NCBI RefSeq assembly: GCF_030161575.1
Contig: NZ_BSUL01000001.1
Location: forward strand, 1,488,001 to 1,552,000
Length of the DNA stretch: 64,000 nt
Source of the DNA: Arenivirga flava
GTDB lineage: Bacteria > Actinomycetota > Actinomycetes > Actinomycetales > Microbacteriaceae
Direction: 5' to 3'
Shown here one piece after another: positions 50,001 through 64,000 of the stretch. The notes beneath the pieces are model-generated. The model ran no database searches, was not told the origin of the DNA, and was given only the letters and a program-made list of their open reading frames with translations. The translations under genes and the position numbers were made by a program. Position 1 is the first letter of the stretch. Each line of letters begins with the position of its first letter.

Positions 50001-50597
50001 GTCGACGCGCACGGGATGCTCGGCCGTGGGCGGGAAGACGTCGAGGATGCCGCCGCGCACCGCGAACTCGCCGCGGCGCGTGACCATGTCGACGCGCACG
50101 TACGCCGCCTCGACGAGGTCGAGCGCGATGCCGCGCAGGTCGTGCCCACGGGCGCCGGCCTCGAGCACGATGGGCGGGGTCGATGCGAGGCCGGGCACGA
50201 GGGGCTGGAAGGCGGCGCGCACGGAGGCGACCACCACGAGCGGGGCATCGGATGCGCCGTGCTCGGCGAGCGCGCGCAGCGTCGCGAGCCGTCTGCCGAC
50301 GGTCTCGGCGCTCGGGCTGAGCCGCTCGTGCGGCAGCGTCTCCCACGCGGGGAACTCGAGGATGCGTGCGGTCGGCAGCAGCGTGCCGAGCGCCTCGCGC
50401 AGCGCCTCGGACTCGCGGCCCGTGGCCGCGACGACGAGCAGGCTGGCGCCGGGGCCGCGCTGCTCGAGCAGCCCGGCGAGCAGCGGTGCGCGCAGACCCT
50501 CGACGGCGGAGAAGTCCGCATCCCTGCGGTGCTGGTCGAGCGCCCGCCCGAAGCTCTCGGACCGGGAGACGACGCGCGACAGACCCTGCAGACTCAC
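47010..50597 (-). CDS. mfd: Transcription-repair coupling factor Mfd
   Basis: 1195 residues from GTG. The N-terminal UvrB-homology region is followed by the RNA-polymerase-interacting domain (GDHVVHTTHGIGRFLELV), then the translocase: Walker A-type SGDVGYGKTEVAVRAAF, DEEQRFGVEHK (DEEQ box), SATPIPRTLEMA and TTIIETGLDVSNANT, and the TRCF C-terminal domain. It removes stalled RNA polymerase and recruits UvrA to lesions. The tail (LAPAQPAPAPA) is low complexity and formed partly by DNA repeats. Confidence 0.97.
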   Translation of the reverse strand: MSLQGLSRVVSRSESFGRALDQHRRDADFSAVEGLRAPLLAGLLEQRGPGASLLVVAATGRESEALREALGTLLPTARILEFPAWETLPHERLSPSAETVGRRLATLRALAEHGASDAPLVVVASVRAAFQPLVPGLASTPPIVLEAGARGHDLRGIALDLVEAAYVRVDMVTRRGEFAVRGGILDVFPPTAEHPVRVDFFGDEVEQIREFSVADQRSTPEPIARVDLAPSRELLLTASVRQRAREMRGEFPSLAPLLEKIVEGIPVDGMESLAPALVDGMVPITDYLPEDAAIALIEPEKVRGRVANLAETNSEFLAAAWNAATAGAEAPIDLGSGEFLSPQKLRAAAGRRPWWTITAFDSGAAEPVDLTDAERVDAAGDYVRLDGEPVPSFAGRAEGALEHLAARAADGWSLVVTLRGTGLIERAVDVLGEQGLAARPVDALPEQPEPAVVHLVQGALEQGFELPDLKVAVLGEADFFGRTAGYGSRQVRKLASRRKNVVDPLQLQPGDHVVHTTHGIGRFLELVQREVSTGGRNAVKTTREFLVLEYAPSKRGYPGDKLYVPTDQLDLLSRYVGGEAPQLSKMGGSDWAAAKGKARKAVRDIAVELVKLYSARMASKGHAFGPDTPWQRELEEAFPFAETADQLTTIDEVKADMERSIPMDRLLSGDVGYGKTEVAVRAAFKAIQDGKQVAMLVPTTLLVRQHLETFVERFAGFPVKIRGLSRFQTAKESKEIVAGLLDGTVDMVIGTHRILSESVQFKDVGLVIIDEEQRFGVEHKDALKKLKTNVDILAMSATPIPRTLEMAVTGIREMSTLATPPEDRHPILTFVGPYHEKQVQAAIRRELLREGQVFFVHNRVSSINRVASQLAELVPEARIAVAHGQMSEGALEQIMVDFWERRFDVLVSTTIIETGLDVSNANTMIIDRADKYGLSQLHQLRGRVGRGRERAYAYFLYDAEKPLSETAHDRLQTIAANNELGGGMQIALKDLEIRGAGNLLGGEQSGHIAGVGFDLYLRMIGEAVSTFRGEVAEGQTELRLELPIDARIPEDYVDSERLRLEAYQKLSAASGPNAADDAIDAVLDELGDRYGTPPEPVEHLIAVSRLRRAAQKLGLGEVVAMGGNLRLAPIDLPDSLQIRLQRLYPGARLFNQTRSLSVPLPGAKHGEPATDAELIAWTEALLGALAPAQPAPAPA

Positions 50598-50729
50598 CGG
50601 GGCAGTCTACGGGCGGCCGGAGACATCCATCCGCTCGCTCCGCTCAGGGCGGAGCCGGCATCCAGCGGAGCGGCGCATCGGGGCGCGGGAGGAACGGGCT
50701 CAGCAGCGACGGGCGCAGGAGGTACGGGC

Positions 50730-51347
50730 TCAGGAGGACGGAGCGTGCCAGCGCTGCTGCGCGGCGAGCAGCCCGTCGGTGGTGAGCTGCTCGACGGCGT
50801 CGGCGGCGTCGCCGAGCAGGTTCGGCAGCACGGAGCGCTCGGCGGCGCTGAAGTCGCGCAGCACGAAGTCGGCCGCGGGCTGCCGTCCGGGCGGCCGTCC
50901 GATGCCGACGCGCACGCGCAGGAAGTCGGGGCTGTCGATGGCCTTGATGATGTCGCGCAGCCCGTTGTGACCGCCGTGGCCGCCGCCCTGCTTCAGCCTG
51001 ATGAGGTCGAAGTCGATGTCGAGCTCGTCGTGGACGACGATGATGCGCTCGGGCGGCACCTTGTAGAACCGCGCCAGACCCGCGACGGGGCCGCCGGACG
51101 TGTTCATGAAGCTGTTCGGCTTGGCGAGGACCAGCCGGGGGCCGCCCGGGAAGGAGCGGCCCTCGGCGATGGTCGCGTTCGCCTTGTGGTTCGAGAAGCG
51201 GGCGGAGATGCGGTGTGCGAGCTCCGCGATCACCATCTGCCCCACGTTGTGGCGGTTGCCGGCGTAGCCGGGCCCGGGGTTGCCGAGCCCGACCACGAGC
51301 CAGTGATCGCCCTCGACCGATGCCTGGGACTTCGTGAAGAGGGCGAT
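50730..51347 (-). CDS. pth: Peptidyl-tRNA hydrolase (start codon problem)
   Basis: The Pth fold is clear: [24 protein letters not shown] (catalytic Asn and His), [12 protein letters not shown] and [29 protein letters not shown]. It cleaves peptidyl-tRNA. The first GTG (51296) would start at VGLGNPG and drop the first strand. In frame upstream there is no ATG/GTG/TTG before the rplY stop, but TAAGGACCCGTC then ATC (51347) gives a good ribosome site and a 205-residue protein. An ATC start or a base error at that codon is likely. Confidence 0.85.
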
Positions 51348-51356
51348 GACGGGTCC

Positions 51357-51980
51357 TTACTCGGCGTCGGCGTCGGCGTCCGCGGCGGGGGCCTCGTCGG
51401 CCTCCTCGCCCTCGGCGGCCTCGTCCTCGTCCTCGACCGGGGCGGCGGGAACGGTGACGTTGACGATGAGGGTCTCGCCGTCGCTGAGCAGGGTGGCGCC
51501 CTTGGGCAGCTCGACGTCGGCGGCCGTGACCTGGCTGCCCTCCTCGAGGCCCTCGATCGAGACCGAGACGCTCTCGGGGATGTGGGTGGCCTCGACCTCG
51601 ACGGAGATCGAGGTGGTCTCCTGCACGTGGATGGTGCCGGGGCCGCTCTCGCCCTCGACGTGCACGGGCACGTCGACGGTGACCTTCTCGCCCTTCTTCA
51701 CGATGACGAGGTCGATGTGCTCGATGATGCGGCGCACCGGGTCGGTCTGCACGTCTTTGACGAGCGCGAGCTGGTTGCTGCCCTCGATGGAGAGGTTCAG
51801 CACGGCGTTCGCCTTGCGGGTGAGCAGCATGGTCTGGTGGCCCGGGAGGGTCAGGTGCACCGGCTCGGTGCCGTGGCCGTAGAGCACGGCGGGGATCTTG
51901 TCGGCGGCGCGGATCTTGCGCGCGGCGCCCTTGCCGAAGGACGTGCGGATCTCGACGTTCAGCGTGGCCTCGTCAGCCAT
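51357..51980 (-). CDS. rplY: 50S ribosomal protein L25/general stress protein Ctc
   Basis: 207 residues; AAGGAGAG precedes the ATG. The L25 N-domain (EIRTSFGKGAARKIRAADKIPAVLYGHG) binds 5S rRNA, the C-terminal beta domain (VDVPVHVEGES...) is of the TL5/CTC type, and the tail is very acidic (Glu/Asp/Ala). It lies immediately before pth, so both are translated from one message. Confidence 0.95.
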   Translation of the reverse strand: MADEATLNVEIRTSFGKGAARKIRAADKIPAVLYGHGTEPVHLTLPGHQTMLLTRKANAVLNLSIEGSNQLALVKDVQTDPVRRIIEHIDLVIVKKGEKVTVDVPVHVEGESGPGTIHVQETTSISVEVEATHIPESVSVSIEGLEEGSQVTAADVELPKGATLLSDGETLIVNVTVPAAPVEDEDEAAEGEEADEAPAADADADAE

Positions 51981-52157
51981 GGTTCTCTCCTTGACGGGCC
52001 GATGCGGCCCGGGTCGTGTGCGGTTGTCATCTCGAACGCATGCGCGTGAGGACAGACTCGAGGCCTCATCCACCGCGTCGATCACGGAGCCGCATCCTCG
52101 CGGATGCGCTCCTCGCCGAAGTTCGCAGGAAGTCTACCCCAGCGATCGGATGCGCGC

Positions 52158-53177
52158 TCAGCGCGCGGTGGACTCCCGCGGCACCCAGGTGGTCGCGATG
52201 CCCTGCACCGACGGTCGGCGGGTGCGCAGATGCTCGACCACCGCCCGTCCCGCGGCGGCTCCGAGGGTGCGGCCGTCGAGCTGCACCGAGCTCAGCGAGG
52301 GTCGCAGCAGCGCTGCCGGCGGCAGATCGTCGAACGCGGCGAGCCCCAGATCCTCGGGGATGCGCAGACCGAGCCCGGCGGCACCCTTGATCACGCCGTA
52401 GGCGAGCCGCTCGTCGCCGCAGACCACGGCCTGCACGCCGAGCTCGGACCAGCGGGGCCAGCGCGCGACGAAGGCCGCGGCGACCGCGTCGCGATCCGGT
52501 CCGGGCACGCCGAGATCCTCGGCGGGGTCGAGCAGGTGCACGTCGTGCCGTGCGAGGGCCCCGGCCACGCGCGGACGGCGTTGCACGAGGCTGGCCGTGC
52601 CGTGCTCGAACGCGAGGTAGCCGACCGTGAGCATGCCGGCCTCGCGCATCCGCTCCCCCATCCCCCGCAGCGCCTCGTCGTAGTCGATGGGCACGCTGGA
52701 GAACGATTCCGGCAGATCGTCGACGTCGAGCACGACCGTCGGCACACCGGTGCGCTCGAGTTCGCCGAGGACGGCCCGCGACGCGCCGACGACGATGAAG
52801 GCGGCCGGCGCGAGGGCGAGCGCGCGGTCGAGCGGCGCTCGCGGCGCGGCCGCGTCGGCCGGGCGGTTGTCGACGAGCTGCACCTCCCAGTCCTCGCCGA
52901 GCGCGGCCGTCACCTCGTCGACGACGTCGCCGAAGAAGCTGAACCGGGCACCCGGGAAGAAAAGCACGACCGTGCGGCTGCTGCCGGTCGAGAGGTGGCG
53001 CGCCGCGCGGTTGGGCACGTAGCCGAGCTCGTCGATCGCGGCGGCGATGCGCTGGCGCCACGCCTCCGTGAGCCGTCCCTCGGCCTTGCCGTTGAGGTAC
53101 AGCGAGACCGCTGCGGTCGAGCAGCCGGCGCGGCTCGCGACGTCCGCTGCGGTCACCCTCCGTTGCTGGTCTGGCAT
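52158..53177 (-). CDS. LacI-family transcriptional regulator (1)
   Basis: 339 residues from ATG at 53177 (ATG at 53189 adds four). The HTH is VTAADVASRAGCSTAAVSLYLNGKAEGRLTE, and the hinge region holds YVPNRAARHLSTGSSRTV. The periplasmic-binding-like sensor domain includes VDDLPESFSSVPIDYDEAL and FDDLPPAALLRPSLSSVQ. It shares the strand of the oxidoreductase pair 53234-55482 and sits 56 bp downstream, so it may be co-transcribed and sense their substrate. Confidence 0.88.
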   Translation of the reverse strand: MPDQQRRVTAADVASRAGCSTAAVSLYLNGKAEGRLTEAWRQRIAAAIDELGYVPNRAARHLSTGSSRTVVLFFPGARFSFFGDVVDEVTAALGEDWEVQLVDNRPADAAAPRAPLDRALALAPAAFIVVGASRAVLGELERTGVPTVVLDVDDLPESFSSVPIDYDEALRGMGERMREAGMLTVGYLAFEHGTASLVQRRPRVAGALARHDVHLLDPAEDLGVPGPDRDAVAAAFVARWPRWSELGVQAVVCGDERLAYGVIKGAAGLGLRIPEDLGLAAFDDLPPAALLRPSLSSVQLDGRTLGAAAGRAVVEHLRTRRPSVQGIATTWVPRESTAR

Positions 53178-53233
53178 GAACCCGAACATAGCGTGGTCCA
53201 CGAGCCGACGACCGTCGGGTACGCGGGCGGACC

Positions 53234-54136
53234 TCAGACCTGGTGGCTGCGGCGTTCGATCTCGCGGATGAGCCCGGTGTGGTCGAGCCCTCCGTCCCCG
53301 TGCGCCACGAGGGCCTCGAACAGTTCGAGGCTCGTAGCGGTCGCCGGCATCGCCACCCCGACGCGCTGCGCTGCGGCGAGCGCGAAGCGGAGGTCCTTGA
53401 CCTGATTCACCGCGACGCCCCCGGCGACGTGCTCGTCGGCGACCCAGTTGCCGCCCTTCTGCCGCAGCAGCTCGCTCCCGGCCAGCCCACCCTCGAGCAG
53501 CCGACGCAGGGCGGCGAGATCGAGCCCGCTGCGCCCGGCCAGCAGGAAGGCCTCCGAGATCACGGCGATCGTGCCGGCGACGATGCTCTGATTGCAGGCC
53601 TTCGCGAGCTGTCCGGCCCCGAGCGGGCCGAGGTGCTCCACGACGGATCCGACCGCGCGCAGGAACGGCGACGCCTCGGCGACGTCCGCATCCGCTCCAC
53701 CGACCATCACGCTGAGCGTCGCCGCCTCGGCGCCGGTGACGCCGCCGCTGACCGGGGCGTCGACGATGCGCACCGGGGCGAGCTCGGCGGCCAGCTCGGC
53801 GGTGGCCGCCGGCGAGTGGGTGCCCATGAGCACGAGCAGCGGATGCGCGATGCACGCCGCCGCCCATCCGTCCCGCAGCCCGTCCAGCAGGCCGAGCACG
53901 TCGTCGAGGTCGGTGAGCACGGTGATGACCACGGGGCGAGCAGCCTCCGCCAGCGAGGCCGCGACCGGCACGCCGACGGCGCGGAACGGCTCGGCCCGCG
54001 CCGGGGTGCGGTTCCAGACCACGAGATCGGCGCCCGCTGCGTGCAGGTTGCGGGCCATCGGCGCTCCCATGGCGCCGAGGCCCAGGAGGGCGACCGGGGC
54101 GGAGCGGCCCCGGTCGCCCGCGAGGGTCGCGCGCAT
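53234..54136 (-). CDS. 3-hydroxyisobutyrate-dehydrogenase-family oxidoreductase (1)
   Basis: 300 residues. The NAD(P) motif VALLGLGAMGAPMARNL, the substrate loop DAPVSGGVTGAEAATLSVMVGG and the catalytic Lys in GAGQLAKACNQSIV are all intact. This family oxidises beta-hydroxy acids (L-threonate, tartronate semialdehyde, 3-hydroxyisobutyrate). Its ATG overlaps the TGA of the COG4091-type gene upstream, so they act in one pathway. Confidence 0.88.
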   Translation of the reverse strand: MRATLAGDRGRSAPVALLGLGAMGAPMARNLHAAGADLVVWNRTPARAEPFRAVGVPVAASLAEAARPVVITVLTDLDDVLGLLDGLRDGWAAACIAHPLLVLMGTHSPAATAELAAELAPVRIVDAPVSGGVTGAEAATLSVMVGGADADVAEASPFLRAVGSVVEHLGPLGAGQLAKACNQSIVAGTIAVISEAFLLAGRSGLDLAALRRLLEGGLAGSELLRQKGGNWVADEHVAGGVAVNQVKDLRFALAAAQRVGVAMPATATSLELFEALVAHGDGGLDHTGLIREIERRSHQV

Positions 54137-55482
54137 CAGACCGCAGCGGCCGTGAGCAGCGCCTCGGTCTCACGACGCAGCGCGATGGCCGTCTCGAGGG
54201 ACTCGTCGACCCGCACGTCCTCCCAGCGGACGATGCCTCCCTCGGGCACGGCGTTGAGCAGCGGCACGTGATGCGCGAGCGCGACCGGCAGCGCCCCTCG
54301 CGCGACCGACGTCTCGGCGGAGATGAGCTTGCCCCAGACGGTGAAGCCGCCCTCGCCGTCGAGCGTCTCGCCGGCCTCGAGGTCCTTCTTGGCGCAGGCC
54401 ACGACGTCGGCGTAGAAGCCGGCCGGTGCGCCGGTGGCGACACCCCGCAGCACGGCGTTGGCGATGGAGATGTTCAGCTCGAGGCCGACGTAGTGGTACG
54501 GACGGAACAGCGCGGCGTACTGCCCGGACGGGTCGGGGTGCCAGGGGTACTCGGCGAAGCAGCTGGCGACGTAGGGGTTCGCGGCCTTGACCACGACGTA
54601 GACGCCCTCCTGGGTGTTGAACGGGATCCACTCGCCGTTCCGGGTGACGCTCGACATCACGTCGACGGTGCCCTCGTGGTCGAGCACCCCGCCGGCGCTG
54701 CGCGGGCTCTGGATGCTGGCGATGTGCTCGATGTCGCCGGGGGTGAAGGTGAGCCCCCTGTCGCTCGGCACCAGCTTCGCCGCGTTGGCGACCGCGGCCA
54801 TCTCGATCGCCGCCTTGGTGCCGTCGCGGAACGAGGTGTGCATGAACGGGTTGAGCTGCCCGGAATCGGTGAGCTCCTTCGAGAACTCCCAGTGCTCCCA
54901 GACGTTGTCGGGGTTCATCGCGTGGTAGTGCTCGAGGTACTTGGCGCCCTTGCCGGCGCAGACCACGTCGAAGCCGGAGGCGCGGGCCCAGTCGACGAGC
55001 TCCCAGATGAGCGCCGGCTGGTCGCCGTATGCGAGGGAGTACACGACGCCCGCCCGCTCGGCTCGACGGGCGAGTGCGGGCCCGGCCAGCGCATCCGCCT
55101 CGACCGTGACCATGACGATGTGCTTGCCGGTCTCGATCGCGCGCAGTGCGTGGTCGATGCCGACGATGGGATTGCCGGTGGCCTCGACGACGACATCCAG
55201 GTCGTGCTCGAAGAGCCCCGCGCTGTCGCTGACGATCGTCGTCGTCCGATTCGCGATGGCCGTCGGGATGTCGGCCGCGTAGGCCTCCTCGGGCCAACCC
55301 ACGAGCGCGAGCGCGCCCTTCGCCCGCTCGACGTCGATGTCGGCGATCGCCACGACGTGCACCCCGGGGATGTTGCGGGCCTGCGCGAGGTACATGGTGC
55401 CGAAGCGCCCGGCGCCGATGAGGCCGATGCGGATGGGGCGGCCGGCTTCTTCGCGGGCCGTCAGGAGGTGGTGGAGGTTCAT
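54136..55482 (-). CDS. COG4091-type oxidoreductase with SAF domain (A)
   Basis: 448 residues from ATG at 55482 (ATG at 55494 overlaps the predicted operator and has no counterpart in the paralogue). The Rossmann motif is IGLIGAGRFGTMYLAQA. The homoserine-dehydrogenase-like part includes VVEATGNPIVG and AYGDQPALIWELVDWA. The C-terminal SAF domain starts near AKKDLEAGETLDGEGG. Known members act on hydroxy or sugar acids; the substrate is unknown here. It is paired with a second, very similar protein at 56690. Confidence 0.82.
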   Translation of the reverse strand: MNLHHLLTAREEAGRPIRIGLIGAGRFGTMYLAQARNIPGVHVVAIADIDVERAKGALALVGWPEEAYAADIPTAIANRTTTIVSDSAGLFEHDLDVVVEATGNPIVGIDHALRAIETGKHIVMVTVEADALAGPALARRAERAGVVYSLAYGDQPALIWELVDWARASGFDVVCAGKGAKYLEHYHAMNPDNVWEHWEFSKELTDSGQLNPFMHTSFRDGTKAAIEMAAVANAAKLVPSDRGLTFTPGDIEHIASIQSPRSAGGVLDHEGTVDVMSSVTRNGEWIPFNTQEGVYVVVKAANPYVASCFAEYPWHPDPSGQYAALFRPYHYVGLELNISIANAVLRGVATGAPAGFYADVVACAKKDLEAGETLDGEGGFTVWGKLISAETSVARGALPVALAHHVPLLNAVPEGGIVRWEDVRVDESLETAIALRRETEALLTAAAV

Positions 55483-55496
55483 GCCGGTGAGCATAC

Positions 55497-55510
55497 TGGA
55501 AACGATTCCA
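55497..55510. promoter_or_regulatory. LacI-type operator O1
   Basis: TGGAAACGATTCCA is palindromic except one pair (TGGAA.CG.TTCCA). It lies directly before the COG4091 A gene and 81 bp before the divergent lacI (55591). Confidence 0.7.
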
Positions 55511-55540
55511 CTTTTGTTCCAATAGCTGCTGCATCCAGTC

Positions 55541-55554
55541 GGTAAACGGTTCCA
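55541..55554. promoter_or_regulatory. LacI-type operator O2
   Basis: GGTAAACGGTTCCA keeps the CG centre and right half of O1, with a weaker left half, 44 bp from it, close to the lacI start. Confidence 0.55.
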
Positions 55555-55590
55555 CTACGCTGATCGGGACGACTCTCGGAGGGGGACGGC

Positions 55591-56604
55591 ATGGCCAGGA
55601 GCGCGACCATCCGCGACGTCGCCTCGGCGGCCGGCGTCTCGATCGCCGTCGTCTCCCGCGTCATCAACCCGGGCTCGGGACCGGTGCGCGCCGAGACGCG
55701 CGATCGGGTGCTCGCCGCCATCGAGCAGCTCGCCTACCGCCCCCGGACGGCGGCCCGCGAGCTCAAGCAGGCCGGCGCGGCGACGACCCTCGGCCTCGTG
55801 CTGGCCGACGTCACCAACCCCTTCTTCGCGCGGCTCGCCGACCGCGTGGTGTGGGAGGCGCGCAGCCGCGGGGTGCAAGTCCTGCTCATGACCACGCAGG
55901 AGGACCCGCACCTCGAGGAGGAGGCCCTGGCCACGCTCGTGTCGCGGCGCGTCGGCGGCGTCATCGCCACCCCCACCGCGACGAACCCCGACTCGTGGGC
56001 GCGTCTGCGGCAGCTCGACACGAACGTGGTCTTCGTCGACCGATCGCTCGACGACGTGCCCGGTGCGCACACGGTGAGCATCGACAACGTGCGCTCCGCG
56101 CGCCAGGCGACCGAGCACCTCGTCGACCTCGGACATCGGCGCATCGGCTTCATCTCGGGCCCCGAGACCTCGAGCACCGGGCGGGCCCGCACGGCGGGCC
56201 ATCGCGCCGTGCTGGCCGAGCGGGGCGTCGAGCAGGACGACGCCCTCGTGCGGCACGTGCCGTTCCGCGGCGAGCAGGGCGGCGACGCCGTGGGCGCGCT
56301 CCTCGCACTGCCGGAGCCGCCGACCGCGCTGGTCGTCGCGAACACCGCGCAGGTCGTCGCCGCGCTGCGCCGCCTGCGCCTGCGAGGCACCGCGGTGCCG
56401 GCCGACCTCTCGGTGGTCGTCTTCGACGACGACCCCTGGACGGAGCTGTTCGAGCCGGCGCTCACCATCATCCGCCAGCCCATAGCGATGCTGGCCGCCC
56501 ATTCGGTCGAGCTCGCCCTCGCCGAGCGGGCGAGCGCGGCGGAGCCCCGTTCGATCGCCGTCGAGGCGGAGTTCGTGCCGCGCGCGAGCACCTCGGCCCC
56601 TTGA
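55591..56604 (+). CDS. LacI-family transcriptional regulator (2)
   Basis: 337 residues. The HTH is ATIRDVASAAGVSIAVVSRVINPGSGPV, and the hinge is LAYRPRTAARELKQAGAATTLGLVLADVTNPFF. Residues typical of the LacI/GalR sensor domain follow (VVFVDRSLDDV, VSIDNVRSARQATEHLVDLGHRRIGFISGP). Divergent from COG4091 A across two matching operators, it is the probable local repressor. Downstream, a GntR-type site precedes COG4091 B. Confidence 0.93.
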   Translation: MARSATIRDVASAAGVSIAVVSRVINPGSGPVRAETRDRVLAAIEQLAYRPRTAARELKQAGAATTLGLVLADVTNPFFARLADRVVWEARSRGVQVLLMTTQEDPHLEEEALATLVSRRVGGVIATPTATNPDSWARLRQLDTNVVFVDRSLDDVPGAHTVSIDNVRSARQATEHLVDLGHRRIGFISGPETSSTGRARTAGHRAVLAERGVEQDDALVRHVPFRGEQGGDAVGALLALPEPPTALVVANTAQVVAALRRLRLRGTAVPADLSVVVFDDDPWTELFEPALTIIRQPIAMLAAHSVELALAERASAAEPRSIAVEAEFVPRASTSAP

Positions 56605-56637
56605 CATCCCAGGGTGTCGGCATCACGCTGTACGCAT

Positions 56638-56648
56638 TGGTCTGACCA
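56638..56648. promoter_or_regulatory. FadR-type operator before COG4091 B
   Basis: TGGTCTGACCA is a perfect 5-1-5 palindrome of the TnGTnnnACnA type, 41 bp before the GTG start. The same 11-mer lies at 62762-62772, before the TRAP operon. Confidence 0.7.
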
Positions 56649-56689
56649 TCTGAACATAGGTGGCTCATGCACGACGGAGAGGTGGTCAC

Positions 56690-58048
56690 GTGAATCTGCA
56701 CACCCTGCTCGAGGCACGCACGGAGGCGTCGGGTCCGGTCCGCGTGGGGGTGATCGGCGCCGGCAAGTTCGCGTCGATGTTCCTCACGCAGGCGTCCGTC
56801 TCCCCCACCCTGCACGTCGTCGCCGTCGCGGACCTCGACGTGCCGAAGGCGAGGGCGGCGATGGAGCGCACCGGATGGGCGCCGGAGCGCTTCGCTGCGG
56901 CGGGCTTCGACCAGGCGCTGCGCGACGGCACCACGTTCGTGACGGACAGCTCGGATGATCTGCTGCGTCGCGGCGAGATCGAGGTCGTGCTCGAGGTCAC
57001 CGGCAACCCCATCGTCGGCACCCACCACGCCCTCACGGCCATCGAGCACGGTAAGCACGTGATCATGGTCAACGTCGAGGCCGACTGCATGGTGGGCCCG
57101 ATCCTCGCTCGCCGCGCACGGGAGGCAGGGGTCGTGTACTCGATGGCCTACGGCGACCAGCCGGCGCTGATCTGCGAGCTCGTCGACTGGTGCCGCACGG
57201 TCGGCTTCGACGTCGTGGCGGCAGGCAAGGGCACCAAGTACCTGCCCGAGTACCACTACTCCACCCCGGACACCGTGTGGGACCACTACGGCTTCACCGA
57301 CGAGCAGCTCGCCAGCGGCGACTTCAACCCGAAGATGTTCAACTCCTTCCTCGACGGCACGAAGTCCGCGATCGAGATGGCCGCCGTCGCGAACGGCACC
57401 GGACTCATCCCGCAGGACGAGGGCCTTCTCTTCCCGCCGGCCGGCGTCGACGACCTGCCCGCCGTCTACCGCCCGCGGGAGCTCGGCGGGTCGCTGACCC
57501 GGCGCGGCACCGTCGAGATCGCCTCGAGCCTCCACCGCGACGGCACCGAGGTGCCGCGCGATCTGCGCTGGGGCGTCTACGTCACCTTCGAGGCGAGGAC
57601 CGACTACGCCGCGCAGTGCTTCACCGAGTACGGCGTGCACACGGACAGCACCGGACGCTACGGGTCGCTGTACCGGCCGTACCACATGATCGGGCTCGAG
57701 CTCGGCGTCAGCATCGCCGCCGCCGTGCTGCGCGGCGAGCCCACCGGCGTGCCCACCGGCTTCCGCGGCGATGTCGTCACCACCGCGAAGCGCGACCTCG
57801 CGGCCGGCGAGACGCTCGACGGCGAGGGCGGCTACACCGTCTACGGCACGCTGCGGCCGGCCCACTACTCGCTCGGGAGGGCGGCGCTGCCGCTCGGCCT
57901 GGCGCACGGCGCCAGGCTCGTCCGCGACGTCGCGAAGGACCAGTCGGTGACCTGGGACGATGTGCAGGTCGACGAGTCCGCCCTCGCGGTGCGGGTGCGC
58001 CGGCAGCTCGAGTCGGAGTTCAGAGCGGAGTCGCTCGCCGCGGTCTGA
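56690..58048 (+). CDS. COG4091-type oxidoreductase with SAF domain (B)
   Basis: 452 residues from GTG with GGAGAGG upstream. It is clearly paralogous to the gene at 54136: GNPIVG, GKHVIMVNVEAD, YSMAYGDQPALICELVDW and the closing SAF domain after AKRDLAAGETLDGEGGYT are shared. The Rossmann loop here is GAGKFASMF, with Ala in place of the last Gly. Two related copies in one island may act on successive or stereoisomeric hydroxy acids. Confidence 0.82.
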   Translation: MNLHTLLEARTEASGPVRVGVIGAGKFASMFLTQASVSPTLHVVAVADLDVPKARAAMERTGWAPERFAAAGFDQALRDGTTFVTDSSDDLLRRGEIEVVLEVTGNPIVGTHHALTAIEHGKHVIMVNVEADCMVGPILARRAREAGVVYSMAYGDQPALICELVDWCRTVGFDVVAAGKGTKYLPEYHYSTPDTVWDHYGFTDEQLASGDFNPKMFNSFLDGTKSAIEMAAVANGTGLIPQDEGLLFPPAGVDDLPAVYRPRELGGSLTRRGTVEIASSLHRDGTEVPRDLRWGVYVTFEARTDYAAQCFTEYGVHTDSTGRYGSLYRPYHMIGLELGVSIAAAVLRGEPTGVPTGFRGDVVTTAKRDLAAGETLDGEGGYTVYGTLRPAHYSLGRAALPLGLAHGARLVRDVAKDQSVTWDDVQVDESALAVRVRRQLESEFRAESLAAV

Positions 58049-58051
58049 CCA
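58041..58051. promoter_or_regulatory. FadR-type operator before gntR (58120)
   Basis: CGGTCTGACCA differs from the other two sites by one base. It overlaps the stop codon of COG4091 B and lies 69 bp before the gntR ATG, as for an autoregulated gene. Confidence 0.55.
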
Positions 58052-58119
58052 TCGGAATCTAGGATTGCGAGGGCGTCGACGGCCGGTCGGCGCCCTCGCG
58101 CACGAAGGGGGCACGTCCG

Positions 58120-58844
58120 ATGAGCGACGCCGACTGGGCGCCGGTGCAGCGCCTGCGCGCGCACGAGCAGGTCATGACGCAGATCGAGGAGCGCATCCTC
58201 GACGGCCGCCTCGGCGCCGGGGACCATCTGCCGAGCGAGCGCGATCTCGCCGCCGCGCTCGGCGTCTCCCGTCCCTCGCTGCGCGAGAGCCTGCGCGTGC
58301 TCGAGGCTCTGGGCCTGCTCGAGGTGCGCCGAGGCGGCGGCCCGGAGGAGGCGCGAAGCTGGTCACGGAGCCCGGCAGCGGCCTCGTCGACCTGCTGCGC
58401 CTGCAGCTCGCCCTCGGCCACTTCGACCAGCGCGACGTGCTGCGCACCCGCCTCGCGCTCGAGACCTGGAGCTGCAGCGAGGCGGCGCTGCACGCCAGCG
58501 CCGAGGACCATGCGGAGCTCGCGGCGATCCTCGACGAGATGGACCGGCCCGGCATCGGCACGGGTGACTTCAACCGTCTCGACGCCGCCTTCCACGTGCG
58601 CATCGCCGCATCGAGCGGCAACCTGCTCACCGGGCATCTGATGAGCTCGCTTCGCGGCGCCATCAACCGCCAGATGATCGACGCCTACGCGACGCTCGAG
58701 GACTGGCAGCGCACCGCCGAGACGGTGCGCTCCGAGCACCGGGCCATCCTCGCCGCCATCGTCGCCGGCGACGCCGACGCGGCCTCGCGCGCCGTCCGCG
58801 AGCACATCGAGAGCTTCTGGGCCCTGGGCCGCATCGCCGACTGA
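58120..58844 (+). CDS. GntR/FadR-family regulator (frameshifted)
   Basis: The winged helix is clear: AHEQVMTQIEERILDGRLGAGDHLPSERDLAAALGVSRPSLRESLRVLEAL...EVRRGGG. After this the frame shifts near 58342-58350; one added C or G restores an open frame into AKLVTEPGSGLVDLLRL and the FCD domain with FHVRIAASSGN, EHRAILAAI and VREHIESF (metal-ligand positions). The rejoined length is 241 residues, normal for FadR. It is the candidate controller of the TGGTCTGACCA sites. Confidence 0.78.
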
Positions 58845-58867
58845 GCCCGCCCGGCGGGCCGGACGAG

Positions 58868-58909
58868 CGGATGCGGGCGGCCGGCGCGCCCGCCGACCAC
58901 CCGCATCCG
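58868..58909. terminator. Bidirectional terminator
   Basis: CGGATGCGGG (58868-58877) pairs with CCCGCATCCG (58900-58909), with further imperfect G/C pairing inside. It lies between convergent gntR and the dehydrogenase gene. Confidence 0.65.
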
Positions 58910-58918
58910 TGCCTGCGA

Positions 58919-59778
58919 CTAGCGGTAGGTCTGCACCACCTGAGAGTCGTCGGCGCTCCCCCAGCCGCGCTCGGCGGCGAGGGCGAAGCGGTCGCGTGCG
59001 GCGATGAGCACCGGGAGGTCGATCCCCACTGACTCCGCGGCGCTCGCGACGAGACCGCTGTCCTTCACGAAGATGCCCACCGTGCTGGAGACCTCCTCAG
59101 GCTCGGCGAGCATCCGCGAGCCCCGGTCGCCGAGCATCCACGAGGCGCCTGCGCCGGCGCCGACGAGGTCGAGCACCGCCGCCGCGTCCAGCCCGAGGCC
59201 CTCGGCGAGCGCCACGGCCTCGGCGGCGGCCACGAGGTGCACCGAGCAGAGCAGCTGATTGATCACCTTGACCGCCTGGCCGGCACCGAGCGATGCGCCG
59301 ACGGTCGCCGGGGTGCCCAGCGCCTCGAGCACGGATCGCGCCGCGGTGAGGTCGTCCTCGTGGCCGGCGGCGAAGATCCGCAGCCGGGCAGCCCGGGCGC
59401 CGGTGACGCCGCCTGTGACGGGGGCGTCGACGAGCCAGGCACCCGCGGACTCGAGGCGCGCGCCGTCGCGGCGCACCGCATCCGGGCCGACCGTGCTCAT
59501 GACGATCCAGAGCTGGTGCTCGACGTCGCCCTCGAGGGCCGCGTCGACCACGGCGGTCAGCTGCTCGGCGGTAGCCACCATGACCACGGTCACCGGCGAG
59601 GCCGGCGCCTCGGCGAGCGCCGCGACCACGGGGAGTCCGGAGGAGGCCGCGCGATCGCGCGCGGCCTCCCGGGCTCCACCCCGGTCACGGCGAACCCCGC
59701 GGCCTGCAATCGCTGCGCCATCGGGAGACCGATGGCGCCGACCCCGATGAAGCGGACATCGGGTCGGGGGTCGGCCAT
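58919..59778 (-). CDS. 3-hydroxyisobutyrate-dehydrogenase-family oxidoreductase (2, frameshifted)
   Basis: The N-terminal frame reads MADPRPDVRFIGVGAIGLPMAQRL (NAD(P) motif, with Ile for the usual Met) to TGVEPG, then breaks near 59668. The remainder, with DAPVTGGVTGARAARLRIFAAG and the catalytic Lys in GAGQAVKVINQLL, is in another frame. One added base in the CCC/GGG run gives 286 residues. It is the last gene of the TRAP operon (stop of dctP at 59783), so it probably processes the transported acid. Confidence 0.78.
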
Positions 59779-59782
59779 CACG

Positions 59783-60790
59783 TCAGCCCTGGATGCGCGA
59801 GATCCACTCGCGTACCTGCTCCGGCTGGCCGTCGCGGATGCCCTGGGTGGCCTCGACCCACGCGTCGCGGTCGGTGATGTCGTTGAACACGGCGCCGCCG
59901 TCGACGAGCTGCTGCTCGTAGTCCGCGAAGCTCGCGATCGTGTCCGCGGTGTACTCCTCGCCGACCTGGTCCGCGGCGTCGCGGATGATCGCCTGGTACT
60001 CCTCGGGCAGGCCGGCGAGCGCCTCGCCCCAGTACAGGAAGTGGTAGTTCGCGTACATGTGGCTCGTCCGGGCGATGTTCGGTGCCACCTCGTGGATGGA
60101 GTTGAACAGGATCGCGTCGAGCGGGTTCTCCTGGCCGTCGAGCACGCCCGACTCGAGCGCCGAGTAGACCTCGTTGAACGGCAGCGCCTCGGCGCGGGCG
60201 CCCAGCGCCTCCCAGGTGGCGAGCATCGTGTTCGCGCTCGGGGTGCGGATGGTCAGCCCGTCCACGTCGCCGAGCTCGGTCACCGGCTCCTTCGTGGTGA
60301 GCTCGCGCGGACCGCGGTACAGGTTGCCGAGGATGTCGTATCCGGTAGCGTCGGTGATCGCGGTCTTGATCTCGTCGCCCAGCTCGCCGTCCCAGACCTC
60401 GAAGAACTGGTCCTCGCCGTCGTAGAGGAAGGGTGTGGTCTCGACGCTCGCGAGGTCGCTGTACGTCTCGAGCGAGAGCAGCGATTCGATGACGATGTCG
60501 ATGGTGCCGAGCTGCTGGCCCTCGATCATCTCCTCCCAGGTGCCGAGCGTCGACGATGCGTGCACCTCGACGGTGATGTCGCCGTCCGACGCCTCCTCGA
60601 CGAGCTCGGCGAGCCGGAGAGCGGCCGTCTGGCGGGGGTCGGTCTCGCTGCCGGCGTGGCCGAGGACGAGCGTGACGGGCTCGCCGGCCTCGGCGCCGCC
60701 CCCGCCTCCTCCGCCGCCGCCGGTGCAGCCGGTGAGGGCCATGGCTCCGGCGGCGAGGCCGGCGATGAGGATGATGCGCTTCTTCTTCAT
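59783..60790 (-). CDS. dctP: TRAP transporter substrate-binding lipoprotein, DctP family
   Basis: 335 residues. The lipobox LTGC (about 19-22) is followed by a run of nine Gly, a flexible linker. The mature domain has VTLVLGHAGSETDPRQTAALRLAE, LGTWEEMIEGQQLGTIDIV and GLTIRTPSANTMLATWEALGA, with a conserved Arg (LTIRTPS) for carboxylate binding. It captures a C4-C6 organic or sugar acid for DctQM. Confidence 0.92.
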   Translation of the reverse strand: MKKKRIILIAGLAAGAMALTGCTGGGGGGGGGAEAGEPVTLVLGHAGSETDPRQTAALRLAELVEEASDGDITVEVHASSTLGTWEEMIEGQQLGTIDIVIESLLSLETYSDLASVETTPFLYDGEDQFFEVWDGELGDEIKTAITDATGYDILGNLYRGPRELTTKEPVTELGDVDGLTIRTPSANTMLATWEALGARAEALPFNEVYSALESGVLDGQENPLDAILFNSIHEVAPNIARTSHMYANYHFLYWGEALAGLPEEYQAIIRDAADQVGEEYTADTIASFADYEQQLVDGGAVFNDITDRDAWVEATQGIRDGQPEQVREWISRIQG

Positions 60791-60831
60791 GATCACTTCC
60801 TTGTGTCGTGAACTGCAGGGGATGGTCGGGG

Positions 60832-62150
60832 TCAGCCGAGCAGCAGGTTCGGCAGGAACAGGGAGATCTGCGGCACGAACGTGATGAGCAGCAGGAACGC
60901 GATGCCGGCGATGAGGAACGGGGCCACCGCCCTGATCGCCTTCACCATCGACACCTTCGCGAGCTCTGCGGAGAGCATGAGCCCGATGCCGACCGGCGGC
61001 GTCAGCAGGCCGACACTGAGGTTGACGACGATGATGATGCCGAGGTGCACCGGATCGACGCCCATAGAGGTGGCGACCGGGTAGAGGATCGGGGTCAGGA
61101 TGATCAGCGCCGCGTTCGCCTCGATGAACATGCCGACGACGAGCAGTACGGCGTTGATCAGCAGCAGCAGGACGATCGGGTTCTCGGTGATCGTGAAGAT
61201 CGCCTCGGCGGCCATCTGCGGCACGAGGCCCGAGGTCAGCGCCCACGAGTAGATCTGCGCAGCCGAGAGCACGAGCATGATGAGGCCCACGATGAGCGTC
61301 GAGTCGGCGAGCGCGTAGACGAGCCGTTTGATGCTGAGCTCCCGGTACACCGCGAAGCCGACCACGAGGGCGTACACCACGGCGATCGCGGCAGCCTCCG
61401 TGGGGGTGAAGACGCCGAAGCGGATGCCGCCGAGGATGAGCACCGGCAGCAGCAGCGCAGGCAGCGCCTTCCACAGCGACGGCAGGAACTTCGGACGGTC
61501 CTCCTTGGGCGTCATGCCGATGCGCGCCTTGTCCTGCGCGATCGCGATCGCCTCCTTGGTGAAGCCGAGCCTCTTCACCGTGAAGTGGATCAGGACCATG
61601 AGCATCAGCACGTAGAGGACCGCGGGCACGATGCCGGCAAAGAACAGCGCGCCGATCGAGGTGCCGCTGACCACTCCGTAGACGATCATCGTGATGCTCG
61701 GAGGCATGATCGGGTCGACCACCGGGGCTGCGGCCATCACCGCGGAGGCGTACTCGGGGCGGTACTTGCGCTGCTTCATCGCCGGGATGAGGATGCGGCC
61801 CAGGCTCGAGACGCTCGCCACGGCTGATCCCGAGATGCCACCGAAGAACAGCGAGCTGAGCACCGTCGTCTGAGCGATGCCGCCGCGCAGGCCGCCGACG
61901 ATCGAGTCCGCCAGATCGAGCATCCGCTTCGTCATACCGCCCTCGTTCATGACCGCACCGGCCAGGACGAACAGCGGGATCGCGAGCAGCGGGAAGGGGT
62001 GATGCCCGCGATGATGCGCTGCGGACCGATCGTGAGGGGCACGTCGGTGACCAGCACCAGCGCCACGAAGGACGCCGCGACGAGCGCGAAGCCGATGGGG
62101 ACGCGCAGCAGCATCGCCACGCCGAAGTTGCCGAGCAGCCAAGCACCCAT
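60832..62150 (-). CDS. dctM: TRAP transporter large permease, DctM family (frameshifted)
   Basis: The first 50 residues (MGAWLLGNFGVAMLLRVPIGFAL...QRIIAGIT) and the rest (FPLLAIPLFVLAGAVMNEGG...LPNLLLG) lie in different frames. One added G in the GGGG run near 61998 gives 439 residues. DctM features are GGMTKRMLDLADSIVGGLRGGIAQT, SSLFFGGISGSAVASV and PSITMIVYGVVSGTSIG. It is the membrane channel of the Na+-coupled importer. It starts 3 bp after the dctQ stop. Confidence 0.9.
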
Positions 62151-62152
62151 GG

Positions 62153-62730
62153 TTACAGCTCTCCCTTGATCACGATGACGTCGTCGGGCTGGAACAGGAC
62201 CTTGGCCTGCAGCGGGTCCTCCCCCGTTCGGCGTGGAAGGTCCTCCACCACGCCTCGATCGCGAAGAGCAGCGAGAACGCGCAACCCACGGGCACGGCGA
62301 GCGAGACCCAGCCCATGGGCAGCCCGAGGCCGGGCATCGTGCGGCGCCAGGCCGGGCCGAGCGCCTCGAGGCCGAACCATACGAGCGCGGCCAGGGCGCC
62401 GACGACGACCAGCGCGGCGAGGGTGTCGACGGTACGGACCAGCCAACGGCGGTAGGGGACGAACTCCCAGATGTCGAGGAGCATGTGCCGGCCGCGCCGC
62501 ACGCCGAGTGCGATCGCGATCATCGCGAGCCACACGAAGGCGTACGAGGCCAGTTCGCTCGTCCACGCGGACGGCGTCGAGGTGACGTAGCGGGCGATCA
62601 CCTGCCAGGTGACGGCGAAGACCACCGTCAAAAGCAGGAGGATGCCCGCGATCTGCAGGGTTCGGTCGAGGGCCGCGAGGACCTTGTCGACCACGGTCGA
62701 GATGCTGATGATCGCTCCTTTGCGATTCAT
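62153..62730 (-). CDS. dctQ: TRAP transporter small permease, DctQ family (frameshifted near C-terminus)
   Basis: 192 residues after repair. Four membrane helices (LLLLTVVFAVTWQVIARYV, ELASYAFVWLAMIAIALGV, LAALVVVGALAALVW, LAVPVGCAFSLLFAIEAWW) match DctQ. The frame breaks after FHAERG in the CCCCC run at about 62221-62225; the restored end is EDPLQAKVLFQPDDVIVIKGEL. It is the first gene of dctQMP-dehydrogenase; a FadR-type site lies 31 bp upstream. Confidence 0.85.
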
Positions 62731-62761
62731 GAGGGGGTCCCTCGGCCATTCCGTTAGACTT

Positions 62762-62772
62762 TGGTCTGACCA
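62762..62772. promoter_or_regulatory. FadR-type operator before the TRAP operon
   Basis: TGGTCTGACCA, identical to the site at 56638-56648 including the flanking TTGG start and ATCTG end; 32 bp before the dctQ start. Confidence 0.75.
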
Positions 62773-62875
62773 TCTGGCGTTACCCGATGATGATGGAGGG
62801 GGCCGGCCGCGTCAATCCCTCCGACGGAGGGACTGAGCCGTGATCGAGCCGGCCTCGAGCGCCGCGAAAAGCAAG

Positions 62876-62889
62876 TGTAACCGATTCCA
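62876..62889. promoter_or_regulatory. LacI-type operator O3
   Basis: TGTAACCGATTCCA matches O1 (TGGAAACGATTCCA) at 12 of 14 positions. The flank CACTTTGTTC resembles CACTTTTGTTC after O1, so the similarity extends beyond the core. Confidence 0.6.
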
Positions 62890-63031
62890 CTTTGTTCACC
62901 TAGGAAGGCCTAATGCGAGCTGCGGTCATTGCAGCACGCCGCGGGTTGAACTGTCAACAATCGAGCACCTCGACGTCCTGCGTCTAGAGTCGAAGCGCAC
63001 GGCACCGGGGACGGCCGGCACGGAAGGGATC

Positions 63032-63719
63032 ATGGCAGCCAGCAGGGTCAGCGCGCTCAGCACGATCGGCAACGTCGACAGGAAGACGCTCCGCGAGCTC
63101 ACGCTCGCCCGAGTGCGCGAGGCGATCGCCGACGGGCAGCTGCCTCCGGGCACGCACCTCGCCGAGATCGAGCTCAGCGAGGCGCTCTCGGTGAGCCGCG
63201 GCACCCTGCGCGAGGCGCTGCGGCACCTCCAGCAGGAGGGGCTGCTGCAGGCCGACAGCCGCGGTCGGCTGACCGTGCGCGTGGTCACGGCGGAGGAGGT
63301 GCACGACATCTTCAGCGTGCGCGCCGCGCTCGAGGCGCTCGCCTTCGAGGAGATCTGCCGCCGCGACGACCGGGGAGATCGTCGCCGAGCTGCGCGCGCT
63401 GCTCGCCCCGCTCGCGGACCCCGCGGTGCCCCTGCCCGAGAAGCTCGAGGCGGACCTGCTCTTCCACCGCGCCCTCTGCCGGCTCAGCGGCAATGCGACG
63501 CTCTACGGCGCCTGGCAGAGCGTCAGCGGCCTCGCCCGCGCCTCCATCACCGCAGCCGGCAGCGTCAACGCGCTCACCAACATGTCGCACGACCGGCACG
63601 CGCCGATCGTGGCGCTGCTGGAGCGCGGCGACGTGGAGGCCGGACGTCTCTTCCTGCGGCAGCACATGCACGAGGCCGCGGAGCGCATCCTGGCCGATCT
63701 GGCCGCCGGCTCGGACTGA
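63032..63719 (+). CDS. GntR/FadR-family regulator (2, frameshifted)
   Basis: GGAAGGGATC precedes ATG. The winged helix is ARVREAIADGQLPPGTHLAEIELSEALSVSRGTLREALRHLQQEGLL. The frame is lost after EEICRRDDR; removing one G from the GGGG run near 63373 rejoins EIVAELRALLAPLADPAVPLPEKLEADLLFHRALCRLSGN and the FCD domain ending QHMHEAAERILADLA. The rejoined length is 228 residues. It lies divergent from the TRAP operon and is a second candidate sensor of its substrate. Confidence 0.75.
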
Positions 63720-63740
63720 GCCGCGCCGGCGACCGTCAGG

Positions 63741-64000
63741 TCAGAGCGCGCCCTTGACGGCGTCGCCGACGGGGATCGGCACCAGGCGGGTGACCTCGAC
63801 CGGAGCGGCGAGCAGCCCGTCGTTCGCGACGTTCAGGTCGGCGACCGGCCGGCCGGCACCGTGCGCGTCGAGCAGCTCGGCGCTCGTCCACTTCTCGATC
63901 ATGACGATCGAGCCGTCGGGCGCATCGGTGATGGCGTACAGCTCGCATCCCTCCTCCTCGTGCACGAGCGGGATGGCGACGCGCAGGTTGGCCAGCACCT
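63741..64000 (-). CDS. Antibiotic-biosynthesis-monooxygenase-like protein, 5' truncated
   Basis: The gene continues beyond the window; only its C-terminal about 86 residues are visible. The GTG near 63998 is probably internal, because the usual start strand precedes LANLRVAIPLVHEEEGCELYAITDA. The sequence DGSIVMIEKWTSAELLDAHGAG fits the ABM/YgiN-like ferredoxin fold, small quinol or sugar-derived-substrate enzymes. Its location next to the catabolic island suggests membership. Confidence 0.65.
   Translation of the reverse strand, partial: VLANLRVAIPLVHEEEGCELYAITDAPDGSIVMIEKWTSAELLDAHGAGRPVADLNVANDGLLAAPVEVTRLVPIPVGDAVKGAL

Follow-up and report, generated by a model that had tools for sequence, protein, structure and literature searches.

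Introduction

Tetronates are broken down by a route in which, according to an excerpt of PMC12540250, LtnD forms 2-oxo-threonate and OtnI converts it to 3-oxo-threonate, the substrate of OtnK; the excerpt credits the sequence LtnD/DenD–OtnI–OtnK–OtnC to Zhang et al. 2016 and a three-step variant to Guo et al. 2024. Here we analyse a gene island of Arenivirga flava, a member of the Microbacteriaceae, that resembles this pathway in part. It begins at position 52158 of a 64,000-nucleotide stretch (positions 1488001–1552000 of contig NZ_BSUL01000001.1, abbreviated C1; hereafter the window) and combines a tripartite ATP-independent periplasmic (TRAP) transporter with two oxidoreductases of Pfam family PF21135, called DRL-A and DRL-B. 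Common to the island and its relatives and the tetronate pathway are DUF1537 kinases and dehydrogenases of the 3-hydroxyisobutyrate dehydrogenase (HIBADH) family, and some clusters of relatives carry a kinase at OtnK level together with an OtnC-type gene. By contrast, a PF21135 protein is found where LtnD/DenD plus OtnI would be expected, and no kinase or decarboxylase gene is adjacent in the window. We propose, with a probability of roughly 0.55, that the island is part of a repressor-controlled catabolic regulon for one or more sugar acids, in which TRAP-mediated import and oxidation would precede the kinase step, and DRL-B and its homolog DRL-C would make the oxo-acid used by the kinase.

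PF21135 ("Oxidoreductase DRL, catalytic domain") is the family that we take to be equivalent to COG4091. This fits the excerpted text of PMC10663253, which draws its DxrII set from COG4091. In the part of PMC3847144 that deals with the DXR-II active site, Thr229, Lys191 and Lys193 are described as jointly anchoring fosmidomycin. The paper, of 2013, names the families DLO1 and DLO2 and leaves them uncharacterised, four DLO1/DLO2 sequences having failed to complement a DXR mutant. A later assignment of function to the DLO families was not among the matches listed in our literature search.

The D-apionate and apiose pathways, reportedly described by Carter and colleagues in 2018, share with our proposal the idea of an NAD-linked oxidoisomerase whose product is used by a DUF1537 kinase or enters an erythrulose branch. 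They differ from the island in that no ApnO- or ApnL-like gene was recognized in it, relatives of these genes being located in another cluster of the host genome.

Sequences and counting rules

The host genome comprises 3.25 Mb in five contigs (completeness 92.98%). Stretches around PF21135 matches carry L-numbers; 34 of them come from 150 genomes of the family, host included, and 80 are named loci that ranked best among 574 candidates. L005 overlaps the end of the window, and L045 and L133 are other stretches of the host genome. Genes were called on the stretches with a codon-usage script and then clustered; absences seen with this gene finder are soft, as it missed the OtnC-type gene of L060, which was recovered by a listing of open reading frames. 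The DRL tree contains 117 DRLs, identical proteins being counted once, with 3upl as outgroup; the DRLs of L020 and L023, uncalled by the gene finder, were left out. Locus counts outside the tree may hold repeats (for example, L029/L057, L034/L050 and L035/L053 are each one genome). A phylum-wide DRL search (64 of 396 genomes), in which members whose catalytic domain is shorter predominated, was kept out of the counts. The annotation of the window covers positions 50000–64000.

Active sites of the DRL proteins

DRL-A (54136–55494, minus strand; its start may be at 55482) and DRL-B (56690–58048, plus strand) match PF21135 with 174.9 and 200.2 bits, respectively (cut-off 27), and are 54% identical. 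A C-terminal SAF domain was detected in DRL-B (31.8 bits, cut-off 21); for DRL-A no SAF match was obtained at E 1e-3, but the C-termini of the two proteins align. The two proteins belong to separate clades of the DRL tree (A clade, n = 13, support 1.00; B clade, n = 31, support 0.99), and a third DRL of the host genome, DRL-C, is 29% identical to DRL-B.

The only solved sequences with a significant match to the DRLs are 3upy and 3upl, the latter being the DXR-II/DRL protein of Brucella. With it DRL-A and DRL-B share the PF21135 catalytic domain, the Gly-Lys-Gly motif containing Lys191, and residues Glu141 and His323. They differ from it in their catabolic context, in a match of 184 residues on a 164-position profile, and in two replaced residues. 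At the position of Thr229 all 13 A-clade members have alanine, all 31 B-clade members serine and all seven C-clade members aspartate, and Glu168 is glutamine throughout the three clades. Lys191 is kept in all of them; Lys193 is kept in A and B in this alignment and is glutamate in C. Serine or alanine at position 229 fits what the excerpt of PMC3847144 says of DLO2, the DRL tree itself holding no published DLO2 row. From this pattern of residues, we infer that the DRLs probably act on substrates without a phosphate group, which would fit a function ahead of a kinase.

It is scarcely credible that the DRLs are instead DXR-II enzymes making methylerythritol phosphate for isoprenoids, with the transport genes as chance neighbours. 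Membership in the same Pfam family and the exclusive match to 3upl/3upy would agree with such a role. Yet the host genome has a canonical DXR, and this together with the replacement of Thr229 and Glu168 led us to reject the idea; moreover, the DRL promoters share sites with the transporter (see below), and the complementation failures recorded in the excerpt of PMC3847144 point in the same direction.

DRL genes and acid-sugar kinases

Among the 150 family genomes, 28 contain a DRL and 70 a PF07005 kinase. The kinase is present in 21 of the 28 genomes with a DRL versus 49 of the 122 genomes without one (Fisher p 8e-4). The association extends to gene positions: 18 of 39 DRL genes are located within 5 kb of a DUF1537 kinase gene and 20 of 39 within 10 kb, where 0.16 and 0.32, respectively, were expected. 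Of the 31 B-clade DRLs, 27 have a FadR gene within five genes, 22 an MFS carrier gene and 22 a DUF1537 kinase gene (21 of one cluster plus that of L060).

The link to OtnK and OtnC is most direct in the C clade. Next to DRL-C, at C1:2.465–2.468 Mb, the host genome encodes a kinase that exceeds the cut-off for 3-oxo-tetronate kinase, OtnK (402.1 against 350), as well as a protein of OtnC type that stays below its own (205.4 against 250), and all seven C-clade loci have a kinase over the OtnK cut-off as well as an OtnC-cluster gene nearby. A B-clade counterpart is L060, from a record labelled Arcanobacterium haemolyticum, whose DRL is 76% identical to DRL-B of the window and is followed by genes for FadR, an MFS carrier, OtnK (382.3, cut-off 350), an OtnC-like protein (163.5, cut-off 250) and DeoR; relatives of LtnD or OtnI were not found near it. 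Among the called genes of six of these eight loci there is no relative of HIBADH or of the isomerase-like TIM-barrel protein TIM48 described below. A DRL seems to stand in for LtnD plus OtnI ahead of OtnK, and a general role of COG4091 proteins as oxidoreductases that feed DUF1537 acid-sugar kinases is suggested by these neighbourhoods. The commoner B-type kinase has no match to a named kinase model over its cut-off in the two examples scanned, so its substrate may be another oxo-acid; for the kinase of L063, no solved relative was found at E 1e-5.

In several loci (L028, L029, L031, L033, L038, L047, L057 and L061, with L029 and L057 being one genome) the DRL-B operon lies between class II fba and glpX. 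The fba neighbourhood is a recurrent insertion site, and in the host genome, too, other acid-sugar genes adjoin fba. We considered the class II fructose-bisphosphate aldolase (PF01116) near many B operons as a stand-in for OtnC and set this aside, a gene of the same cluster being similarly placed in L045 without a DRL; we read this aldolase, without proof, as a housekeeping enzyme.

Operator-like sites common to the transporter and the DRL genes

The promoter region of dctQMP carries operator-like sites that also occur in the DRL-A and DRL-B promoters. LacI-2 (55591–56604, plus strand; PF00356 over cut-off) is encoded divergently from DRL-A and is 68% identical to the LacI protein of L025. An 18-bp palindrome is present between LacI-2 orthologues and DRL-A in ten of ten loci examined, in the window at 55495–55512, and a second candidate site without mismatch lies upstream of dctQ at 62874–62891. 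Such a site precedes dctQ in three of the four TRAP islands that carry LacI-2 (window, L025 and L063), while L039, L051 and L071 have neither LacI-2 nor a site of this type. With up to three mismatches, the pattern gives five strand matches at three places of the window (0.11 expected). In the entire host genome, the two places named are the only ones with zero mismatches when the pattern is relaxed at one position; the DRL-A site is exact only in this relaxed pattern and has one mismatch in the unrelaxed one, the dctQ site being exact in all versions. In 1.79 Mb of other loci, a site with up to two mismatches appears only in L005, where the overlap with the window repeats the window's own site. 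Counts at this level in the host genome (five and six strand matches) are little above those of the backward control (three and five), and for this reason the case for a LacI-2 regulon rests on the zero-mismatch places; C1:150100 is an unrelated place with one mismatch.

A candidate FadR-1 site, TTGGTCTGACCATCTG, is located upstream of DRL-B at 56637–56652, and TGGTNNNACCA is found upstream of 26 of the 31 B-clade DRLs. Exact TTGGTCTGACCA sites occur twice in the host genome, upstream of DRL-B and upstream of dctQ, the latter (62761–62776, about 30 bp before the dctQ ATG) being a 16-mer identical to the former. Four places elsewhere in the host genome have one mismatch (control: 2 and 0). In L051 and L071, where DRL-B and dctQ are already co-directional in one line, no FadR-1 site is found at dctQ.

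The third palindrome, AYTGTYRACART, is ascribed to FadR-2 and has two exact places in the host genome: 62950–62961, between dctQ and fadR-2, and C1:1726621–1726632, about 50 bp before the gene pair TIM48–SDR4. Its nine sites in the window, L025, L039, L051 and L071 are all intergenic, and the one further match, among other loci totalling 1.89 Mb, is the window's own site in L005. With up to one mismatch, the pattern has one match in the window, and so do 20 of 100 shuffles, which is not above chance.

All three patterns were derived from the promoters described, that of FadR-2 by eye and with inclusion of the window and C1:1726621 sites; independent evidence comes from the LacI-2 and FadR-1 sites at dctQ and from the near absence of sites elsewhere. 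From position and co-occurrence, LacI-2, FadR-1 and FadR-2 probably bind the respective palindromes.

Conservation of the island and its two modules

Six islands contain both DRL genes and dctQMP, namely those of the window, L025, L039, L051 (Agrococcus sediminis), L063 (a Microbacteriaceae metagenome-assembled genome) and L071 (Microbacterium sp. Root53). The genes of L051 and L071 all run in one direction and are arranged as DRL-B, dctQ, dctM, dctP, DRL-A, HIBADH. In all five relatives a TIM48 gene (PF01261 in L063) adjoins a gene for a short-chain dehydrogenase/reductase, SDR4; the host counterparts are located about 175 kb from the island at C1:1724919–1726573, host TIM48 being 54% identical to the L063 copy and host SDR4 80% identical to the L025 copy. 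A predicted model of TIM48 (pTM 0.88) matches sugar isomerases and epimerases in tied rows. Genes for kinases of the DUF1537 and DAK types and for an isomerase of the RpiB family are additionally present in L025 and L063 (families read on the L063 copies).

The neighbourhoods of the 13 A-clade DRLs differ from those of the B clade. Within five genes, HIBADH is encoded at 12 of the 13 loci, LacI at 10, ABM at 9, DctP at 7, RbsB at 5 and gluconokinase at 4; the thirteenth locus (L026) ends at the stretch border, and a HIBADH gene opens the adjoining L027, which brings the HIBADH count to 13 of 13. Five A-clade islands have no TRAP genes and instead encode an ATP-binding cassette (ABC) importer, a dehydrogenase of the NAD-epimerase family and an Amidohydro_2 protein; in L012 the dehydrogenase matches PF01370, and the PF04909 protein has a distant L-fuconolactonase match (95.2, cut-off 400). 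A neutral sugar may be converted to the acid in these ABC-type islands, whereas the acid would be imported directly in the TRAP islands. In relatives, DRL-A is accompanied by HIBADH-A and DRL-B by FadR-1 and a kinase, and the two DRLs are often encoded in separate places; they therefore look like two modules that share one transporter.

These data bear on the original prediction, which saw in the island a single pathway for one imported acid. The shared sites tie dctQ to both DRL genes, and the neighbouring genes, whose joint conservation had been proposed as a check, are kept together in the window and five relatives; the notion of a pathway for an imported acid gains support from both, and the two DRLs, often encoded apart in relatives, may act on different compounds. 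The suspected link to four-carbon acid sugars is borne out in kind by the DUF1537 kinases and OtnK/OtnC clusters of relatives. The separation of the DRL modules could also be taken to mean that the island is a loose collection, with an ordinary dicarboxylate as TRAP substrate and independent DRL modules. This is very unlikely in view of the co-directional order DRL-B, dctQMP, DRL-A, HIBADH in L051 and L071 and of the operator-like sites common to the transporter and the DRL genes.

The gene content of the A-type islands admits another explanation, in which DRL-A and HIBADH-A form an oxidation–reduction pair that epimerises a six-carbon aldonate at C2 or C3 to D-gluconate, to be phosphorylated by gluconokinase. 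An analogous epimerisation to gluconate via oxidation and reduction takes place in the L-idonate pathway of E. coli. Four of the five ABC-type islands have a gluconokinase-cluster gene within five genes of DRL-A, the one scanned, from L012, passing the GntK/IdnK-type model (167.7, cut-off 113.75), and the nearest relatives of the binding proteins (see below) as well as the gluconate genes that follow the island in the host genome are compatible with a six-carbon acid. We nevertheless regard the pair as rather doubtful, given that the five relatives' TRAP islands with both DRLs, as fetched, contain no gluconokinase-cluster gene and that DRL-B, TIM48, SDR4 and the DUF1537 and DAK kinases are left unexplained.

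Other genes of the island and its surroundings

HIBADH-A, a beta-hydroxyacid dehydrogenase (53234–54136, minus strand; PF03446 and PF14833), overlaps with its start the stop of DRL-A and belongs to a clade of 12 (support 1.00); its best NCBIfam match is TIGR01505 (199.7 bits, under the cut-off of 340.75). Downstream of it lies the gene for LacI-1 (52158–53156, minus strand; PF00356 44.2 bits, PF13377 73.6 bits), for which an in-frame upstream start to about 53213 is an alternative to the gene call. As LacI-1 is merely 26% identical to the LacI protein of L025, it is not the conserved LacI. HIBADH-B (58919 to about 59757, minus strand; PF03446 and PF14833; in an orthologue clade) is threonate-dehydrogenase-like, a frame-broken part of 236 amino acids matching the LtnD equivalog ThreonDh with 154.7 bits (cut-off 350).

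The regulators FadR-1 (58120–58844, plus strand) and FadR-2 (63032–63728, plus strand) are both broken in frame. FadR-1 is split in tblastn between frames 1 and 3, one piece matching GntR (72.0) and the other FCD (86.0), and the first piece of FadR-2 passes GntR (57.3). Compared with relatives, five frames of the island are shifted: FadR-1 (near 58340), HIBADH-B (59644–59671), DctM (near 62000), the 3' end of DctQ (near 62225) and FadR-2 (63358–63441). They may represent assembly indel errors, which is the simple reading, or decay. After fadR-2 follows a gene for a small ABM-family protein (63741–64000 and past the window end, minus strand; complete in L005:5742–6059; PF03992 34.7 bits, cut-off 23.1). 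ABM-family proteins are frequent companions of DRL-A (9 of 13 A-clade loci).

The inventory made from the sequence in the original prediction, with two COG4091 proteins, two 3-HIBADH-like enzymes, dctQMP, two LacI and two FadR regulators, is confirmed by Pfam matches and coordinates. It had further stated that a kinase and an aldolase are absent, and neither was seen for the pathway in positions 50000–64000; likewise, OtnK and OtnC were not recognized in the window island. An FGGY gluconokinase-like gene is located 1.98 kb beyond the window end (L005:7979–9517; 444.5 bits, under the cut-off of 648.55). It is part of a gene set just past the window (L005:6210–15069) comprising the 6-phosphogluconate dehydrogenase gene gnd, the FGGY gene, a GntP-family permease gene and then a GntR-type gene, after which comes what we take to be a TctCBA-like transporter set. 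This gene set was not seen in the TRAP islands of the relatives.

Transport and substrate

DctP (a solute-binding lipoprotein, 59783–60796; PF03480 204.9 bits), DctM (the large permease, 60832–62150; PF06808 372.5 bits) and DctQ (the small permease, 62170–62730; PF04290 95.0 bits, with 3' homology continuing in another frame) are encoded on the minus strand and, being all over the Pfam cut-off, constitute a complete TRAP set. These families link the island to sugar-acid TRAP transporters, and the nearest solved sequence to DctP is 4pc9/4pcd (143.2 bits), which we take to be a binder of D-mannonate and L-galactonate; a difference is the identity of only 28% to 4pcd in the model alignment. Ligand assignment from a predicted model of DctP (pTM 0.68, five sequences) was abandoned, many TRAP matches being tied at Z 25–27.5. 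The closest matches of the L012 protein that binds solutes for the ABC importer are D-allose binders and two entries that look engineered. Taken as hints, these matches favour six-carbon acids as substrates of the A module, and OtnK/OtnC among the relatives of the B module favour four-carbon acids; two related substrates may possibly enter through one TRAP importer.

A branched or linear, apionate-like acid of five carbons could be accommodated if a DRL catalysed an oxidative DXR-type step and its product were decarboxylated to erythrulose, from which a DAK kinase and an RpiB-type isomerase would lead to erythrose 4-phosphate. In L025 and L063, TIM48 and SDR4 occur together with a kinase of the DAK family and an isomerase of the RpiB family, those of L025 with the FadR-2 motif in their shared promoter region, and the excerpt of PMC3847144 describes DXR-II as a one-enzyme reductoisomerase. 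This route is unlikely, however. As fetched, L039, L051 and L071 have no genes of the DAK and RpiB clusters, the host DAK and RpiB genes have no FadR-2 site, and the OtnK/OtnC partners favour four-carbon acids. In addition, the host genome already has a cluster of its own, L045:8393–19901 (C1:2.967–2.978 Mb), with genes for a GntR-type protein, a frame-cut DUF1537 kinase and a HIBADH by fba, followed by ApnL-like, SDR, MFS, TIM-barrel and ApnO-like genes. The ApnL-like protein scores 187.6 (cut-off 750), and the protein matching KARI_N is presumably ApnO-like; L045 is possibly an apionate-type cluster. Neither ApnL nor ApnO was found among the scanned island proteins. Because this separate cluster exists, apionate is a less likely substrate of the island, although both proteins of L045 are only distant from the named families.

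A further gene row of the host genome, L133:4734–10432 (C1:1174.2–1179.9 kb), encodes triose-phosphate-isomerase-like, GntP-cluster, dehydrogenase, RpiB-cluster and DAK-family proteins without a FadR-2 site and is perhaps a tetrulose pathway.

Other PF21135 loci

PF21135 proteins of L021, L022, L102 and L013 adjoin E1-alpha and E1-beta subunits of the 2-oxo-acid/acetoin dehydrogenase type, L022 being from the window's genus. The DRLs of L021 and L022, like that of L024, which has no such neighbours, keep Thr229, Glu168 and Lys193-Asn-Asn of DXR-II. Methylerythritol breakdown via deoxyxylulose is a thought for the E1-associated loci. In another DRL clade (L032, L040, L068, L069, L070 and L082), which is a third catabolic version, an HpaI-type aldolase and FadR are encoded in six of six loci, a KdgT permease in five of six, and a NIPSNAP-cluster gene in some. 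The DRL genes of L093, L100, L108, L111, L113, L114 and L122, mostly from proteobacterial records, are preceded by genes for a PhyH dioxygenase and a GntR protein, the PhyH domain being confirmed in L083 and L100.

Discussion

In the catabolic regulon that we favour, DctPQM would take up an unphosphorylated acid, which NAD(P)-linked enzymes would oxidise in the cytoplasm ahead of any kinase. DRL-B, and DRL-C elsewhere, would convert an acid sugar to the oxo-acid phosphorylated by a DUF1537 kinase and would alone do the work of LtnD/DenD plus OtnI in the tetronate pathway. DRL-A and HIBADH-A are envisaged as a pair whose substrate is the TRAP-imported acid or, in the case of relatives, an acid that a dehydrogenase and a lactonase would produce from a neutral sugar. 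The other steps may fall to TIM48, SDR4 and kinases, whose genes are part of the island in relatives and scattered over the host genome. A DRL might either oxidise C3 directly or oxidise and rearrange its substrate as DXR-II in reverse.

A number of observations weigh against this regulon. DRL-B of the host has no adjacent kinase gene; of the two host DUF1537 genes, at distances of about 0.9 and 1.4 Mb, one is located beside DRL-C, and the other, cut short by a frame break, does not belong to the B-type kinase group. Neither of the two B-type kinases that were scanned reaches an NCBIfam cut-off, all three scanned proteins of OtnC type score under the cut-off of 250 (217.3, 205.4 and 163.5), and the gene at the end of the ABC-type A islands is for a gluconokinase and not for a kinase of the DUF1537 family. 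DRL-C, with its low identity of 29% to DRL-B, represents a clade that lacks Lys193 and Glu174. Genes with which a DRL should be able to dispense are not entirely missing from the OtnK-type loci: L017 has HIBADH and TIM-barrel genes four to six genes off, L007 a weak TIM match, L014 an SDR gene after DeoR, and in L060 a gene of the alcohol-dehydrogenase cluster lies at a distance of six genes. With respect to regulation, L013, which has LacI-2 and TRAP genes, lacks a LacI site by dctQ even at four mismatches, the FadR-1 site by dctQ is confined to the window (0 of 5 other islands with both DRLs), and strict FadR-1 or FadR-2 sites are missing from L063. Finally, five frames of the island are broken.

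It is tempting to go one step further and to regard the DLO2-like branch of COG4091 as acid-sugar oxido-isomerases that replace a dehydrogenase plus an isomerase before DUF1537 kinases in Actinomycetota, two of them sharing a TRAP importer under three intermediate-specific repressors. In one active site, a branched or epimeric sugar acid without phosphate would then be oxidised and rearranged to a 3-oxo-acid. This extension is distinctly tentative.

The link between DRLs and kinases and the L060-type cluster make the function assayable, as a DRL together with OtnK and OtnC should yield dihydroxyacetone phosphate from the right tetronate, and the candidate operators predict which genes belong to the pathway. 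If the proposed regulon is true, the fold of an isoprenoid-pathway enzyme would serve sugar-acid catabolism.

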